Shown one piece after another: positions 10,940-61,498 of a stretch of 64,000 bases of DNA. The notes under the pieces are model-generated. The model had not been told where the DNA came from. It worked only from the letters and a program-made list of their open reading frames with translations, and searched no databases. The first letter of the stretch is position 1, and the number at the start of each line of letters is the position of its first letter. Origin of the DNA: a sulfur-oxidizing endosymbiont of Gigantopelta aegis (lineage in GTDB: Bacteria > Pseudomonadota > Gammaproteobacteria > GRL18); the NCBI RefSeq assembly GCF_016097415.1, contig NZ_JAEHGE010000001.1, positions 211,001-275,000 of the forward strand, read 5' to 3'. The translations under genes and the position numbers were made by a program.

Positions 10940-10965
10940 TCTACTCCACACATAATCTATACTTT

Positions 10966-11003
10966 AATTATAGTATAATTATAGTATAATTATAGTATAA
11001 TTA
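10966..11003 (-). repeat. 11-bp AT tandem repeat carrying stacked -10 boxes in the IS
   Basis: The unit AATTATAGTAT is repeated three times with a partial fourth. On the minus strand each unit presents a TATAAT hexamer, spaced 11 bp apart, just upstream of the transposase start. Copy number could tune transposase expression. Confidence 0.75.
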
Positions 11004-11044
11004 TCGAAATATGGCGGAGCTTTGTGGGTAATCAAGAAAAAATA

Positions 11045-14590: not shown

Positions 14591-14623
14591 TGATGCGCTT
14601 CGTACCTCAGCAGCATCCTACGA
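14591..14623. repeat. Palindromic element family D, copy 1
   Basis: GATGCGCTTCG, then CCTCAGCAGC and ATCCTACGA. On the other strand it reads TCGTAGGATGCTGCTGAGG and ends CGCATCA, a GTAG-headed REP-like unit. Other copies are at 28241-28274 and 42853-42886. Confidence 0.75.
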
Positions 14624-14701
14624 AAGCCTTTAGCAGCGATGGAAAGCCTTTAGCGGCAATGGGAAGCCTTTAGCGTAAATAAAAAGCCTTTAGCTAAATA
14701 A
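14622..14701. repeat. 20-bp tandem repeat, four units
   Basis: Units GAAAGCCTTTAGCAGCGATG, GAAAGCCTTTAGCGGCAATG, GGAAGCCTTTAGCGTAAATA and a degenerate fourth follow each other between coq7 and the metalloprotease. The last unit overlaps the metalloprotease stop codon (14694-14696). Confidence 0.9.
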
Positions 14702-15566
14702 AGAAGTCGATGAAGCTCTTTTGTTCTAAGACGCTGGCATTTTGAATGCGTTTGTAGGTATTTTGAATGTTTTTATCATTTTGATCTTGTTGTGGACTTA
14801 GAAAATCACTTTCAGGGGTGTTTGCATCGATATATTGAGCCTGAGTATCACGCACTTGTTGAGAAATATCGACTCGAGCCTGCACTTCCATTCGAGAGGC
14901 CTGGGCAGCAACGGAGCGATCTTGTGACGATGGATCGGCAGGTGCTGAAGCCGCACGACGAATACGTTGTGCTTTGTTCAGGGTTGCTTGGGGATCGCCT
15001 GCAACGGCAGAAGTATCAATGCTCACCTCACCACCCACCGCATAGCGTTTGTTATCGGGGCCAGTTTCATAGTCAAAACTAGCACCGCCTTGGGCTAAAT
15101 CACCGGCAGCAGAAAGATGTGCCTGCTCATGCGCTTTGACTTCGGTGTCTCGGCTACGTAACTTTTCAACTTCTAAACGCTCTGATTCGCTTAGTTCAGA
15201 TGAAAATTGCTCGGCTGGTTTGGTCTTATCGGTGGGTTCTTTTTCATCAGTGCTATTTTTATCAGTGCTATTTTTACCGGCAATGCCCGTCTGCTTTGCT
15301 GGTGCTTCACTGACCTCAGAATCACCTTTTGCACCGAGTATTTTCGGCTGCTGTGTTTTTGTTTGCGCTGTTTTTGTTGCTTCTGTTTGTGTAGCCTCTG
15401 TTTGTGTAGTGCTTGTATTTTGCTTATCAGCAAATGCGATCTGGCGTGCTTGAGCTGAGAAAGTCGCTGTATCTTGAGGCGCTGCGGCAACACGAAGCCC
15501 TTCTATCTGTCGAGCAGAATAGACTTGGGGGCTGATGCTTGAATTGACGGCACTATTAATGTTCAT
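14694..15566 (-). CDS. Putative SprA-type metalloprotease (CJM1_0395-like)
   Basis: This 290-residue protein has a conserved C-terminal half and a low-complexity N-terminal half. The zinc motif is HEQAH (segment VKAHEQAHLSAAGDLAQGG, about residue 147), followed by the family signature PDNKRYAVGGEVSID and the segment VAAQASRMEVQARVD. The N-terminal half is rich in Gln, Thr, Lys and Ala, with TEATQTEATK and NSTDKNSTDE repeats, and looks disordered. The family is annotated as a putative metalloprotease; activity is inferred from the motif only. It converges on coq7 and diverges from fabA. Confidence 0.78.
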   Translation of the reverse strand: MNINSAVNSSISPQVYSARQIEGLRVAAAPQDTATFSAQARQIAFADKQNTSTTQTEATQTEATKTAQTKTQQPKILGAKGDSEVSEAPAKQTGIAGKNSTDKNSTDEKEPTDKTKPAEQFSSELSESERLEVEKLRSRDTEVKAHEQAHLSAAGDLAQGGASFDYETGPDNKRYAVGGEVSIDTSAVAGDPQATLNKAQRIRRAASAPADPSSQDRSVAAQASRMEVQARVDISQQVRDTQAQYIDANTPESDFLSPQQDQNDKNIQNTYKRIQNASVLEQKSFIDFFI

Positions 15567-56158: not shown

Positions 56159-57112
56159 TTAAATATTCTGTAATTCTTTGGGCAAAGAAAAAACAACCGT
56201 TTCTTTTTCTCCTATCTCAACACTATCGGCTTCAACTCCTTGTTTTTTTAGAAAATCAACCACTTCTTCTACCAAATATTCTGGTGCTGAGGCTCCTGCT
56301 GTTACACCAATTTTAGCTCCATCCACTAGCCATTGAGTTTGAATTTCATCAGCAGAATCAATCAAATAGGCTCTAGCGCCCTGTTTTTCTGCCACTTCAC
56401 GCAAGCGATTTGAATTTGAACTATTGGGCGAGCCTACAACTAAGACCAAATCTGAACTTTGTGATAAAGTTTTTACTGCATCTTGACGGCTTTGTGTGGC
56501 ATAGCAAATATCATTCTTCTTTGGCCCGGCAATTTTAGGGTAACGTTCTTTCAGAGCATTAATCACCTCCGAGGTATCATCCATGGACAGTGTTGTTTGG
56601 CTCACATAAGCCAATTTATCCGGATTTTGCACCGCTAAATGCATAACATCAGCAGGCGTTTCAACTAAATAAATTCCTCCGCCCTGCTTATCGTCATACT
56701 GCCCCATAGTACCCTCTACTTCGGGGTGACCTGTATGGCCAATAAGAATACACTCTGTACCTGACTGACTAAACCTCGACACTTCCAGATGTACTTTGGT
56801 GACTAATGGGCAGGTCGCATCAAACACTTTCACATCTCGACTCTCTGCTTCTTTTTTTACCGCTTTAGACACACCATGGGCACTGAAAATAACAATCGTA
56901 CCATCGGGCACATCCTTCAACTCTTCGACAAAAATAGCACCCCGGTTTTTTAAGGATTCAACAACAGCTCGGTTATGAACAACTTCATGGCGCACATAAA
57001 TAGGCGCACCAAATAGCGTCAGGGCACGATCAACAATTTCAATAGCACGATCAACACCGGCACAAAATCCTCGCGGATTGGCTAATTTTAATTGCATCTC
57101 TTTAGCAGACAT
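56159..57112 (-). CDS. ispH: 4-hydroxy-3-methylbut-2-enyl diphosphate reductase
   Basis: This is an Fe-S enzyme of 317 residues at the last step of the MEP route. Cluster cysteines are in [24 protein letters not shown] and [13 protein letters not shown]; the substrate site has VRHEVVHN and [14 protein letters not shown] set the start at the ATG at 57112, because AAAGGAAA stands eight bases before it and the length is normal; the longer frame would need a GTG at 57163. It has its own upstream region, after a terminator for fkpB. Confidence 0.96.
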
Positions 57113-57163
57113 TTTTTTTCCTTTATTATGACTATCTTTTTCTGTACTCATTTCTGTAAGCAC

Positions 57164-57507: not shown

Positions 57508-57963
57508 TTACTTTACAGCCACAACCTCAACAGCAAAAACCACTTCATGACCGGCCAATGGATGATTAAAATCCACTAGCACTTTATCTTCTTTTATCTC
57601 CATCAAAATACCGGGAATTTGTTCACCTGATGGGGTGCCAAACTCAACCAGCAAGCCTTCTTCAAGCTCAACATCTAGATCAAACTCAGCTCTCTCCATC
57701 CAATGCTTATTGGCTTCATCGGGAAAACCAAAGGTATCACGCGGGTCAAGACTGACCTGTTGCTTGTCGCCTACCGTTAAATCCATTAGCACTTCTTCTA
57801 AGGCGGCGATCATAGAACCATCACCCATAGTAAAGGTCATCGGCTCACCATCTTGGGTGCCATCAACGGCTGAACCATCAGCCAGAGTAAGGCTGAAATG
57901 CATCGTTACTGTGCTATCAGCGGTTATTTTTTTTTCAGATGTTGAATTTGTCGAATTTGTCAA
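57508..57963 (-). CDS. fkpB: FKBP-type peptidyl-prolyl isomerase (SlpA/FkpB type)
   Basis: This 151-residue prolyl isomerase has an FKBP fold with an inserted IF domain. Signatures: TVTMHFSLTLADGSAVDGT, EPMTFTMGDGSMIAALEEVL, KQQVSLDPRDTFGFPDE, and VLVDFNHPLAGHEVVFAVEV. It helps ribosome assembly or folding in the cytoplasm. Usual neighbour of lspA and ispH in gammaproteobacteria. Confidence 0.94.
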   Translation of the reverse strand: MTNSTNSTSEKKITADSTVTMHFSLTLADGSAVDGTQDGEPMTFTMGDGSMIAALEEVLMDLTVGDKQQVSLDPRDTFGFPDEANKHWMERAEFDLDVELEEGLLVEFGTPSGEQIPGILMEIKEDKVLVDFNHPLAGHEVVFAVEVVAVK

Positions 57964-58009: not shown

Positions 58010-58642
58010 TTAATGGGGGGTGTTTTTTGGCTCTTCTTTTGGCTCTTCTTTTGGCTCTTCTTTTGGCTCTTCTTTTGGCTCTTCTTTTGGCTCTTCTTTT
58101 GGCTCTTCTTTTGGCTCTTCTTTTGGCTCTTCTTTTGGCTCTTCTTTTGGCTCTTCTTTTGGCTCATCTTTAGAAAAAATGGCATCAATGATCAGCATAA
58201 ATGCCCCCACACTGATCGCCATATCAGCCACATTAAATGCCGGCCAATGTTTGGCAGGGCTTTGAGGATTGGCCTGGTAATAAAAATCCAGAAAATCGAC
58301 TACATAGCCCAGAGTCAGTCGGTCCCACAAATTACCTAAGGCACCGCCTAATACCAGCGCCAGTGAAATAGCCACCCAGCGCTCATGATCTTGCAAGCGT
58401 TTCAGCCAGAGCAAAATCACTACACTGACCACAAAGGCTATGATGGCAAAAAACCAGCGCTGCCAGCCAGACTCTTCCGCTAGAAAACTAAAGGCTGCAC
58501 CGGGGTTATGCGCCAAGGTCAAATTAAACCAACCCGGAATAACGGTCAACGTTTCATACAGCTCAAAATTTTGACTCGCCAGTGCCTTAGTGCCTAGATC
58601 CAGGATCACAACCAATAAGGTCAGCCATAACCACTTTAACAT
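58010..58642 (-). CDS. lspA: Lipoprotein signal peptidase with repeat-extended C-terminus
   Basis: LspA cuts lipoprotein signal peptides in the inner membrane. Four TM segments are visible, at about 1-20, 60-80, 88-106 and 128-152. The catalytic Asp residues lie in GYVVDFLDFY and FNVADMAISVG; GGALGNLWDR and NPGAAFSFLA are also family motifs. The usual protein ends near residue 160; here a tail of 11 perfect KEEP units and a short NTPH end bring it to 210 residues. The tail is highly charged and comes after the last TM segment, so it should face the cytoplasm. The gene follows ileS. Confidence 0.95.
   Translation of the reverse strand: MLKWLWLTLLVVILDLGTKALASQNFELYETLTVIPGWFNLTLAHNPGAAFSFLAEESGWQRWFFAIIAFVVSVVILLWLKRLQDHERWVAISLALVLGGALGNLWDRLTLGYVVDFLDFYYQANPQSPAKHWPAFNVADMAISVGAFMLIIDAIFSKDEPKEEPKEEPKEEPKEEPKEEPKEEPKEEPKEEPKEEPKEEPKEEPKNTPH
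58029..58172. repeat. 12-bp minisatellite at the lspA 3' end, 11 perfect units
   Basis: GGCTCTTCTTTT is repeated 11 times without any change (58029-58160), and a twelfth unit has two changes (GGCTCATCTTTA). Units are multiples of three, so all copy numbers keep the lspA frame. Perfect identity suggests recent expansion. Confidence 0.97.
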
Positions 58643-58681
58643 CCGGCAATCACTCGTCTAAGCTTATGTATAACGACGCAC

Positions 58682-61498
58682 TTATGCATAACGACGTACT
58701 TCGCCGTCACCGGAGACATTATCCACACAGCGACCACATAATTCCGGATGTTCGCTATGGCTACCAACATCTTCAAGGTGATGCCAGCAACGCACACATT
58801 TCTCATGCCCTGAGGCCTTAACGTTGAGTGCCAGACCGGCAACATCTTCAATCTCAACCGCATCAGCAGGCTTATCTGCCAAGGGATGTAAGCGCACCGC
58901 CGAAGTAATCAGGACAAAACGCAATTCATTGTCTAATTGCGCTAACACTTTAAGCAATGCATCATCACAATACAGGTCAACCTCTGCATCCAGTGAAGAA
59001 CCAATGGTTTTGTCTACCCGCAATTTTTCCATTTCTTTACTACAGGCAACGCGCACACTGAGCACTTGCTGCCAGAAGGTATTATCCATAGCCTCTTTTG
59101 TCTGCGCAGGGAATGCATACCAGGTTTCAAAGAATACTGAATCGGTATGTTCACCGGGGACAAATGGCCATAATTCTTCTGCCGTAAAGGTCAAAATTGG
59201 CGCTATCCAACGGGTCATGGCTTCAATAATGTGATATAAAGCAGTTTGTGCCGAACGTCGCGCCACGCTGTCTTCTTGTGTGGTGTATTGACGATCTTTA
59301 ATCACATCCAGATAAAATGCGCCTAAGTCCATAGCACAGAAGTTATGGACTTTTTGGTAGACAATATGAAAGTCATATTGCTCGTACGCACCAATAATTT
59401 CCTGCTGTAACTCTTCTGCTGTCACCATAATCCAACGATCCAGTGGTAACATTTGTTCTGTACTTAAGCTATTTTTTTCTGGCTCAAAACCATCCAGATT
59501 TGCCAGCATAAAACGGGCGGTATTACGAATACGGCGATAGGCATCCGCGGTACGTTTTAAAATCTCATCAGACACGGTGATTTCACCGGTATAATCCGTT
59601 GATGATACCCATAGGCGTAGAATATCTGCACCTAAGGTTTTCATGATTTTTTGTGGAGCCACGACATTGCCCTTGGACTTGGACATTTTTTTGCCCTGTG
59701 CATCCACTACAAAGCCATGCGTCAGCACTTCTTTATAGGGTGCGACATCGTTCACGGCCACCGAAGTTAGCAAGGACGACTGAAACCAGCCACGATGCTG
59801 ATCCGAGCCTTCCAGATACAAGTCCGCTGGAAATTGCAGTTCTTCTCGCTCATTGATCACACAAGCATGAGTCACACCGGAGTCAAACCAGACATCCAGG
59901 GTATCAGTAACTTTACTATAGTCTTTGGCATCATCGCCAATCAGTTCTGCTGCATCTAAATCAAACCAGTCATCAATACCCTTTTCGGCGACGCGCTGAG
60001 CAATGGTTTCGATCAATTTCGGGGTATCAGGGTGTAATGCCTGCGTTTCGTTATGAACAAAAACCGCAATCGGCACACCCCAGGTACGCTGACGGGAGAT
60101 ACACCAGTCCGGACGATTTTCCATCATGCCTTCAATGCGTGCCTTGCCCCAATCCGGTAGCCAGGTGGTTTTTCTCGCGGCATCAATCGCCAAACCACGC
60201 AAGCCGCTTTGATCCATGCTGATAAACCATTGTGGTGTCGCACGAAAAATGATCGGGGTTTTATGTCGCCAGCAATGAGGATAGCTATGCAATAACTCAT
60301 AATGATTCAGCAATGCGCCTTTTTCCCGCAAAACTTCCAGCACCAGCGGGTTAGCTTTAAAGATATGCTGACCTTCAAATAATTCTGTCCCGGTGACGAA
60401 ACAACCATTGGGACCGACAGGATTATCCACTTCCAGGTCATATTTCAGACCCACAATATAATCTTCCTGACCATGACCCGGCGCAGTATGCACTGCACCC
60501 GTACCTGAATCAGCGGTCACATGCTCGCCGAGAATAATAGGTACTTGACGATCATAAAAAGGATGTTGCAATAACTGCATTTCTAAATCAGCACCCTTAC
60601 AACGCCCTAGTACTTCGTAGTCTTCAACGCCATAGCGCTTCATGGCTCGTTCATACAAATCTTCTGCCAGAATTAATATCCCGACTTCTGACTTCACTAG
60701 CACATAGTCAAATTCAGCATGTAATGCAACTGCTTGGTTAGCGGGTAAGGTCCAGGGTGTCGTGGTCCAGATCACGGCACTGATAGCCATGTCAGAGTCA
60801 TCACTGGCAGCAAACTTCTCTAGCACTGCTGATTTGTCTAACACCTGAAAACGCACATCTATCGCAGGTGAATTTTTATCTTCATATTCCACTTCGGCTT
60901 CTGCTAAGGCAGAAGCACAACTAGTACACCAGTGAACCGGCTTAGAGCCCTTGTGTAAGTGTCCTTTGTCGATAATTTTACCCAGGGTTCGGATAATATT
61001 GGCTTCAAAGTTAAAGTCCATGGTCAGATAAGGATTATCCCAATCACCCATCACGCCCAGACGTTTAAAATCTTCTTTCTGGCCTGCCACTTGCTTTTTA
61101 GCATAGTCACGACAACCATTGCGGAAGGTTTTGGCATCCACTTTAACGCCCGGCTTGCCCATTTTTTTCTCAACATTGAGCTCGATGGGTAGGCCATGAC
61201 AATCCCAACCGGGAATATAGGGTGCATCATAGCCACCCAAGGTCTGAGATTTGATAATAATATCTTTCAAGATTTTATTGACCGCATGGCCAATATGAAT
61301 ATTGCCATTGGCATAAGGAGGGCCATCATGCAGAATAAATTTAGGCCGACCCGCCGCGATTTCACGCAACTTCTGGTACACACCGTTTGTTTCCCATTGT
61401 GCCAACATACCAGGTTCCCGCTGTGCCAGATTGGCCTTCATGGGGAACTTAGTCTTAGGTAAATTCAGGGTCTCTTTGTAGATATTCTGCTTGCTCAC
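58682..61498 (-). CDS. ileS: Isoleucyl-tRNA synthetase
   Basis: This class I synthetase has 938 residues. HIGH motif in [22 protein letters not shown] motif in [14 protein letters not shown], editing domain with [15 protein letters not shown] and [16 protein letters not shown], and a C-terminal zinc site [10 protein letters not shown] with CGRCVDNV. It belongs to the bacterial type. The order ribF-ileS-lspA is conserved in gammaproteobacteria. Confidence 0.98.

Follow-up and report, generated by a model that had tools for sequence, protein, structure and literature searches.

The lspA gene of the sulfur-oxidizing Gigantopelta aegis endosymbiont ends in an array of 12-bp repeats that is probably a young, in-frame tandem expansion within an unconstrained C-terminal tail. 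Most likely, the tail records a recent and harmless copying slip. The array lies within a window of 64,000 nucleotides (the whole stretch of DNA analyzed), where the gene order is ileS-lspA-fkpB-ispH. The features of this locus are as follows:

58010-58642, minus strand: lspA, lipoprotein signal peptidase, 210 amino acids with repeat tail (open reading frame [ORF], TIGR00077, structures, AlphaFold)
58025-58156, minus strand: eleven perfect 12-bp units, GAAGAGCCAAAA on the gene strand, encoding EEPK (sequence, TRF, shuffles)
58157-58168, minus strand: variant edge unit GATGAGCCAAAA (DEPK), at the 5′ end of the array in the gene (sequence)
58682-61498, minus strand: ileS, upstream neighbor (named from sequence and gene order)
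57508-57963, minus strand: fkpB-like FKBP-type peptidyl-prolyl isomerase, downstream neighbor (ORF, family model)
56159-57163, minus strand: ispH, downstream neighbor (ORF, family model)

Read on the plus strand, the array contains 11 perfect copies of TTTTGGCTCTTC, adjoined by a twelfth unit with a single change (TTTTGGCTCATC); in gene orientation, lspA closes with TCTAAA GATGAGCCAAAA (GAAGAGCCAAAA)x11 AACACCCCCCATTAA. TRF reported 12 bp × 12.2 with 99% matches and a score of 287, the strongest in the window, where the next score was 114. With one mismatch allowed, the chance expectation for the TTTTGGCTCTTC unit in the whole window is 0.55, and none of 100 shuffles reached 12. A sequence-only reading of this DNA had described eleven identical 12-bp units that add a KEEP tail to LspA. 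Our analysis bears this out and adds the variant unit; KEEP is a rotation of EEPK, which the unit encodes in the lspA frame. The same reading remarked that several frames are open through the repeat, on either strand, which is true yet trivial for a 12-mer with no stops and therefore carries no weight. As the units are a multiple of three, preserve the frame, and lie within a gene, the array has the form of a coding minisatellite.

The ORF carrying the array encodes the essential membrane enzyme LspA, as it scores 137.9 bits against TIGR00077 (cut-off, 73.95). LspA structures 9emz and 5dir align to residues 2-159 (E about 1e-48), and residues N104, D107, R108, N137, and D140 (source numbering) are invariant in an alignment of 20 LspA sequences, with the two catalytic aspartates in conserved motifs. 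In the AlphaFold model, helices span residues 2-25, 49-55, 60-82, 88-110, and 138-156, while the tail lacks secondary structure, with pLDDT dropping to 54-63. Each EEPK unit of the tail has a net charge of one negative. The array is thus predicted to give LspA a long, acidic, flexible (EEPK)n tail and to leave the catalytic core intact. This agrees with the earlier proposals that the tail starts after the last transmembrane helix, which in the model ends at residue 156, and that activity is probably retained because the tail lies beyond the core, whose residues appear intact in the 20-sequence alignment. The membrane topology of LspA is established, and it would place the repeat tail in the cytoplasm.

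Several observations argue that the expansion is recent. The 11 perfect units are identical at synonymous sites as well, and the sole variant unit is at one edge. A two-unit 12-bp pattern had no copy outside lspA in the 4.91-Mb source genome, and 368 other genomes of the class gave no hit to a three-unit pattern covering all synonymous codons. The latter result rejects the idea that KEEP repeats are a class general to Gammaproteobacteria. Of the two origins that the sequence-only reading had offered, recent expansion or gene conversion, the identical units and edge variant favor the first, and conversion from elsewhere is not supported, given the lack of a second copy. A fixed tail of equal length in relatives, which that reading had named as a possibility to check, does not apply, since their lspA genes carry no such tail. 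As far as one genome per species shows, the array appears to be local, recent, and species-specific. Judged by titles and abstracts, the literature we found contains no description of a tandem repeat in lspA.

The number of units could instead be a product of assembly, inflated or collapsed, although we consider this unlikely. A genome of this symbiont was assembled with Unicycler from Illumina and Nanopore reads into 11 scaffolds totaling 4.91 Mb (PMC7895826); the sequence we analyzed has 4,910,116 bases in 11 contigs. At 147 bp, the array has roughly the length of one Illumina read, and the exact number of eleven is not secure. Against this, the array sits inside a 4.2-Mb contig, the frame is intact on both sides, and the edge unit is distinct. 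A wrong unit number is possible; a wholly invented array is unlikely.

To place the tail among its relatives, we compared the residues that follow the last helix in 85 LspA proteins (a few sequences being counted twice under two locus names). These tails range from 2 to 54 residues, with most between 5 and 16. The source tail, at 54 residues, is the longest, followed by those of two congeners, G004 (38 residues) and G013 (32 residues). Other congeners usually have hydrophilic tails of 8-12 residues, such as SKEPPASE, SKDQKTSSDKN, and TKDKPDSDT, and G005, the sister of G013 (99% support), also has a short tail. The long tails of G004 and G013 are built of another, degenerate unit of ~18 bp, AAAGAGCC(T/A/C)TCAGCNN(A/G)T. 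They look unrelated, or distantly related, to the source tail, and they have grown at the same lspA site. The sequence-only reading missed this 18-bp family at lspA, as finding it requires other genomes.

Alternatively, the tail could be functional, as a selected acidic, flexible extension that would tether LspA to a partner or tune its amount. The reading frame and the downstream fkpB are intact, and the family arrays at the lspA site of the two congeners also yield hydrophilic, charged tails. However, unit, length, and sequence differ between congeners, and most have no such tail; the source tail has no predicted structure, and mere tolerance would also leave hydrophilic tails. We regard a functional tail as improbable. 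Since a perfect array carries no substitutions, selection on the lspA tail cannot be read from the array itself.

We examined the distribution of the 18-bp family by searching for AAAGAGCCNTCAGCNNAT followed by AAAGAGCC with up to three mismatches, using the reversed pattern as a control. Matches were obtained in 14 of 16 genomes of the genus, with as many as about 100 sites per genome; the control gave none. The G004 lspA tail was itself among these blind matches. The family also occurs in genus g3, of the same taxonomic family. Outside the genus, the pattern was found in only 4 of 141 genomes of the class, with one to three matches each. A sequence profile made from three 18-bp units (R1) gave, at E 1e-4, 113 matches in G005, 56 in G013, 37 in G004, 21 in the source genome, 13 in G021, 10 in G007, 3 in G001, and 1 in G018 (several matches per array), and none in G011, G016, or four other genomes of the class. 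In these searches, the family is a dispersed minisatellite that is strong in two genera of one taxonomic family and nearly absent from about 140 other genomes of the class. Our literature search, whose coverage leaves out most subscription journals, found no dispersed in-frame minisatellite in sulfur-oxidizing bacteria.

R1 matches the lspA tails of G004 and G013 at E 1e-13 and 8e-7, respectively. In G013, a three-unit family array also lies between ileS and lspA (R1 E 3e-11; L002 2062-2111, minus strand; G013:C96:42110-42159), so that this operon holds two arrays of the family. The corresponding junction in the window carries an 18-bp tandem duplication (CTTATGCATAACGACGCA x 2.2; 58663-58701) that covers the terminus of ileS, immediately ahead of lspA; the junction is the same and the sequences differ. 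Directly after lspA, genus g3 (L010, L013, and L014) carries a repeated word, GCGCTGAG, and its inverse.

It is possible, though in our view doubtful, that the 12-bp array descends from the 18-bp family by shortening and renewed expansion. A AAAGAGCC-TCAGC array would have come to the 3′ end of an ancestral lspA, as in G004 and G013, and would then have shrunk and regrown from the core GAAGAGCCA. Gene end, strand, and reading frame (KEP/EEP) are common to the source array and the family arrays of G004 and G013, as is the core AAGAGCCA, and only 32 of 2,000 shuffles of the 12-bp unit matched its similarity score. However, an equal score is reached by 331 of 2,000 random units (17%) that code for E, E, P, and K, whatever the order. 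Moreover, R1 reports no lspA array in the window, even at E 10; the period is 12 rather than 18; and the branching order of the source, G004, G008, and G009 is not resolved in the tree. A more cautious statement is that in-frame repeats are tolerated in the tail of LspA and have grown there more than once.

Our preferred origin remains a young in-frame expansion. Replication slippage or unequal exchange would have copied a short seed in the unconstrained C-terminal tail, something like DEPK-EEPK, 12 bp at a time and without loss of frame. The product would be a disordered, acidic (EEPK)n tail, and the protease core would be left alone. Slippage as the mechanism, near-neutrality, and an unstable copy number are what we infer for this array. 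The lineage also seems predisposed to in-frame repeats, as the 18-bp family is present at the lspA site of two congeners and in many genes across two genera.

The 18-bp units themselves show a regular organization. Across 105 distinct arrays, successive units were spaced by exactly 18 bp 373 times, with spacings of 36, 21, and 24 bp far behind. The consensus is not a palindrome. Positions 7 and 13 of the unit co-vary (C-G 365, T-A 63, T-G 55, and C-A 40), with most units of two types, GAGCC-CAGC and GAGTC-CAAC. A hairpin was considered and rejected, since only about two pairs would form and two sub-lineages of units are the simpler reading.

Within the window, one array away from lspA is related to the family:

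14622-14704, plus strand: weak non-coding array related to the 18-bp family, with degenerate GAAAGCCTTTAGCAGCAATG-like units (TRF; R1 E 2e-4 and 0.001)

It has stops in all six frames. Elsewhere in the source genome, the arrays include 13 LPVEDS units in a 596-codon frame, an array directly after a signal-peptide-like stretch, and a short family-like insert in a KsgA/RsmA-like methyltransferase. The gene with this insert is present on two contigs (L317, C1:941744; L318, C3:252575), reflecting either duplication or redundant assembly. An 18-bp Gly-Ser array of about 13 units lies in a 1,314-codon frame (L134 16525-16766). We also observed an 11-bp tandem repeat, ATAATTATAGT or ATAATTATACT, at 10952-11004 of the window and at several other places in the source genome (L131, L133, L147, L159, and L168); no open frame runs through it, and it recurs at a spacing of roughly one helical turn. 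Tandem-repeat frequency was assessed on a 0.98-Mb sample.

Many arrays of the 18-bp family lie in frame within proteins or at their ends. We considered 88 arrays, picked from pattern matches rather than at random, in open frames of at least 150 codons; these frames run from stop to stop and are not proof of genes. The arrays read EPSAxK in 41 cases and AEGSLx in 43, two readings that derive from opposite strands of one DNA unit. Other open readings of the consensus were rare (KSLQxI twice and LKALYx once), and one array was in a further phase. That one DNA unit is read from both strands points to spread at the DNA level, and the preference for two hydrophilic readings suggests that selection acts on the protein. 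By Pfam, four proteins have a single domain that spans the insert: an aldose-epimerase family protein, MurD, a GmhB-like phosphatase, and a histidine kinase. In UvrA, a HemW-like protein, and RecX, the insert has family domains to either side. Arrays were also found in GyrA-like and RNase E-like C-terminal regions (named from sequence). Congener loci with in-frame family arrays include L230, L271, L235, L185, L188, L206, L257, and L225, among others.

LpxK provides a clear example. Between TEKDAVKC and WYLPIKA, G005 has about seven units and G013 about four. The eight other congeners aligned across this site (two more did not align there), including the source species, have no array and plain linkers of varying length. 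Given the sister relationship of G005 and G013 (99% support in a tree built from lspA, fkpB, and ispH), the simplest reading of the alignment is one in-frame gain in their ancestor, followed by a change in length.

Taken alone, the lspA array is a clear but ordinary coding minisatellite. What is rarer emerges from the relatives: a short DNA unit occurs, in two opposite readings, within many conserved enzymes, including some that are essential in model bacteria, and its presence and copy number differ between sister species. If confirmed, these arrays would provide dozens of natural experiments on which sites in folded proteins accept linkers and on how DNA repeats spread through coding sequence. 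They also serve as a warning that, in the genomes of these symbionts, repeats influence gene length, domain assignment, and the points at which contigs break. Symbionts of lucinid clams that appear to be among the congeners studied here (loci L043 and L048) were assigned to Thiohalomonadales, family SZUA-152, in one clade with the Gigantopelta aegis symbiont (PMC9938160). In the widest reading, for which our confidence is evenly divided, a selfish-like 18-bp minisatellite spreads as DNA in two genera of sulfur-oxidizing gammaproteobacteria, including animal symbionts, and seeds arrays in housekeeping genes in both orientations, where they are tolerated because two of the readings, EPSAxK and AEGSLx, are soluble linkers. 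The family would then be a tandem-repeat counterpart of Rickettsia palindromic elements (RPEs), and the KEEP tail of LspA would have arisen locally, as an offshoot or by-product of this tendency.

How do these repeats compare with known systems? The lspA array resembles coding minisatellites and intragenic VNTRs, which likewise consist of short perfect tandem units, a multiple of three in length, within a gene. Coding minisatellites are expected to change length via slippage. In our case the carrier is the lspA tail, and with one strain, length variation is expected by analogy. For the 18-bp family, and not for the lspA array, RPEs provide the closer parallel. RPEs are palindromic elements of about 150 bp (Ogata 2000, 2002; as reviewed in PMC10969869). 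In both cases, repeats scattered as DNA have been joined in frame to unrelated housekeeping genes, and the LpxK array of G005 and G013 is, like an RPE, an in-frame insertion absent from orthologs, here those of eight congeners. In contrast to RPEs, which we compared by description only, the 18-bp family is tandem, non-palindromic, and made of 18-bp units rather than an approximately 150-bp palindrome. PARCELs are also tandem repeats spread among coding sequences; however, they encode a 25-residue amphipathic motif, occur in ORFs without assigned function, and have dyad symmetry in their DNA, whereas the 18-bp family places hydrophilic units of 6 residues within known enzymes. Small dispersed repeats of about 20 bp (PMC2884548), compared by description only, are likewise very short, dispersed, and tandem, and the 18-bp family differs from them in lying mostly inside reading frames. 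By this comparison, the 18-bp family would be a lineage-specific, in-frame minisatellite that resembles RPEs in its effect and is built differently.
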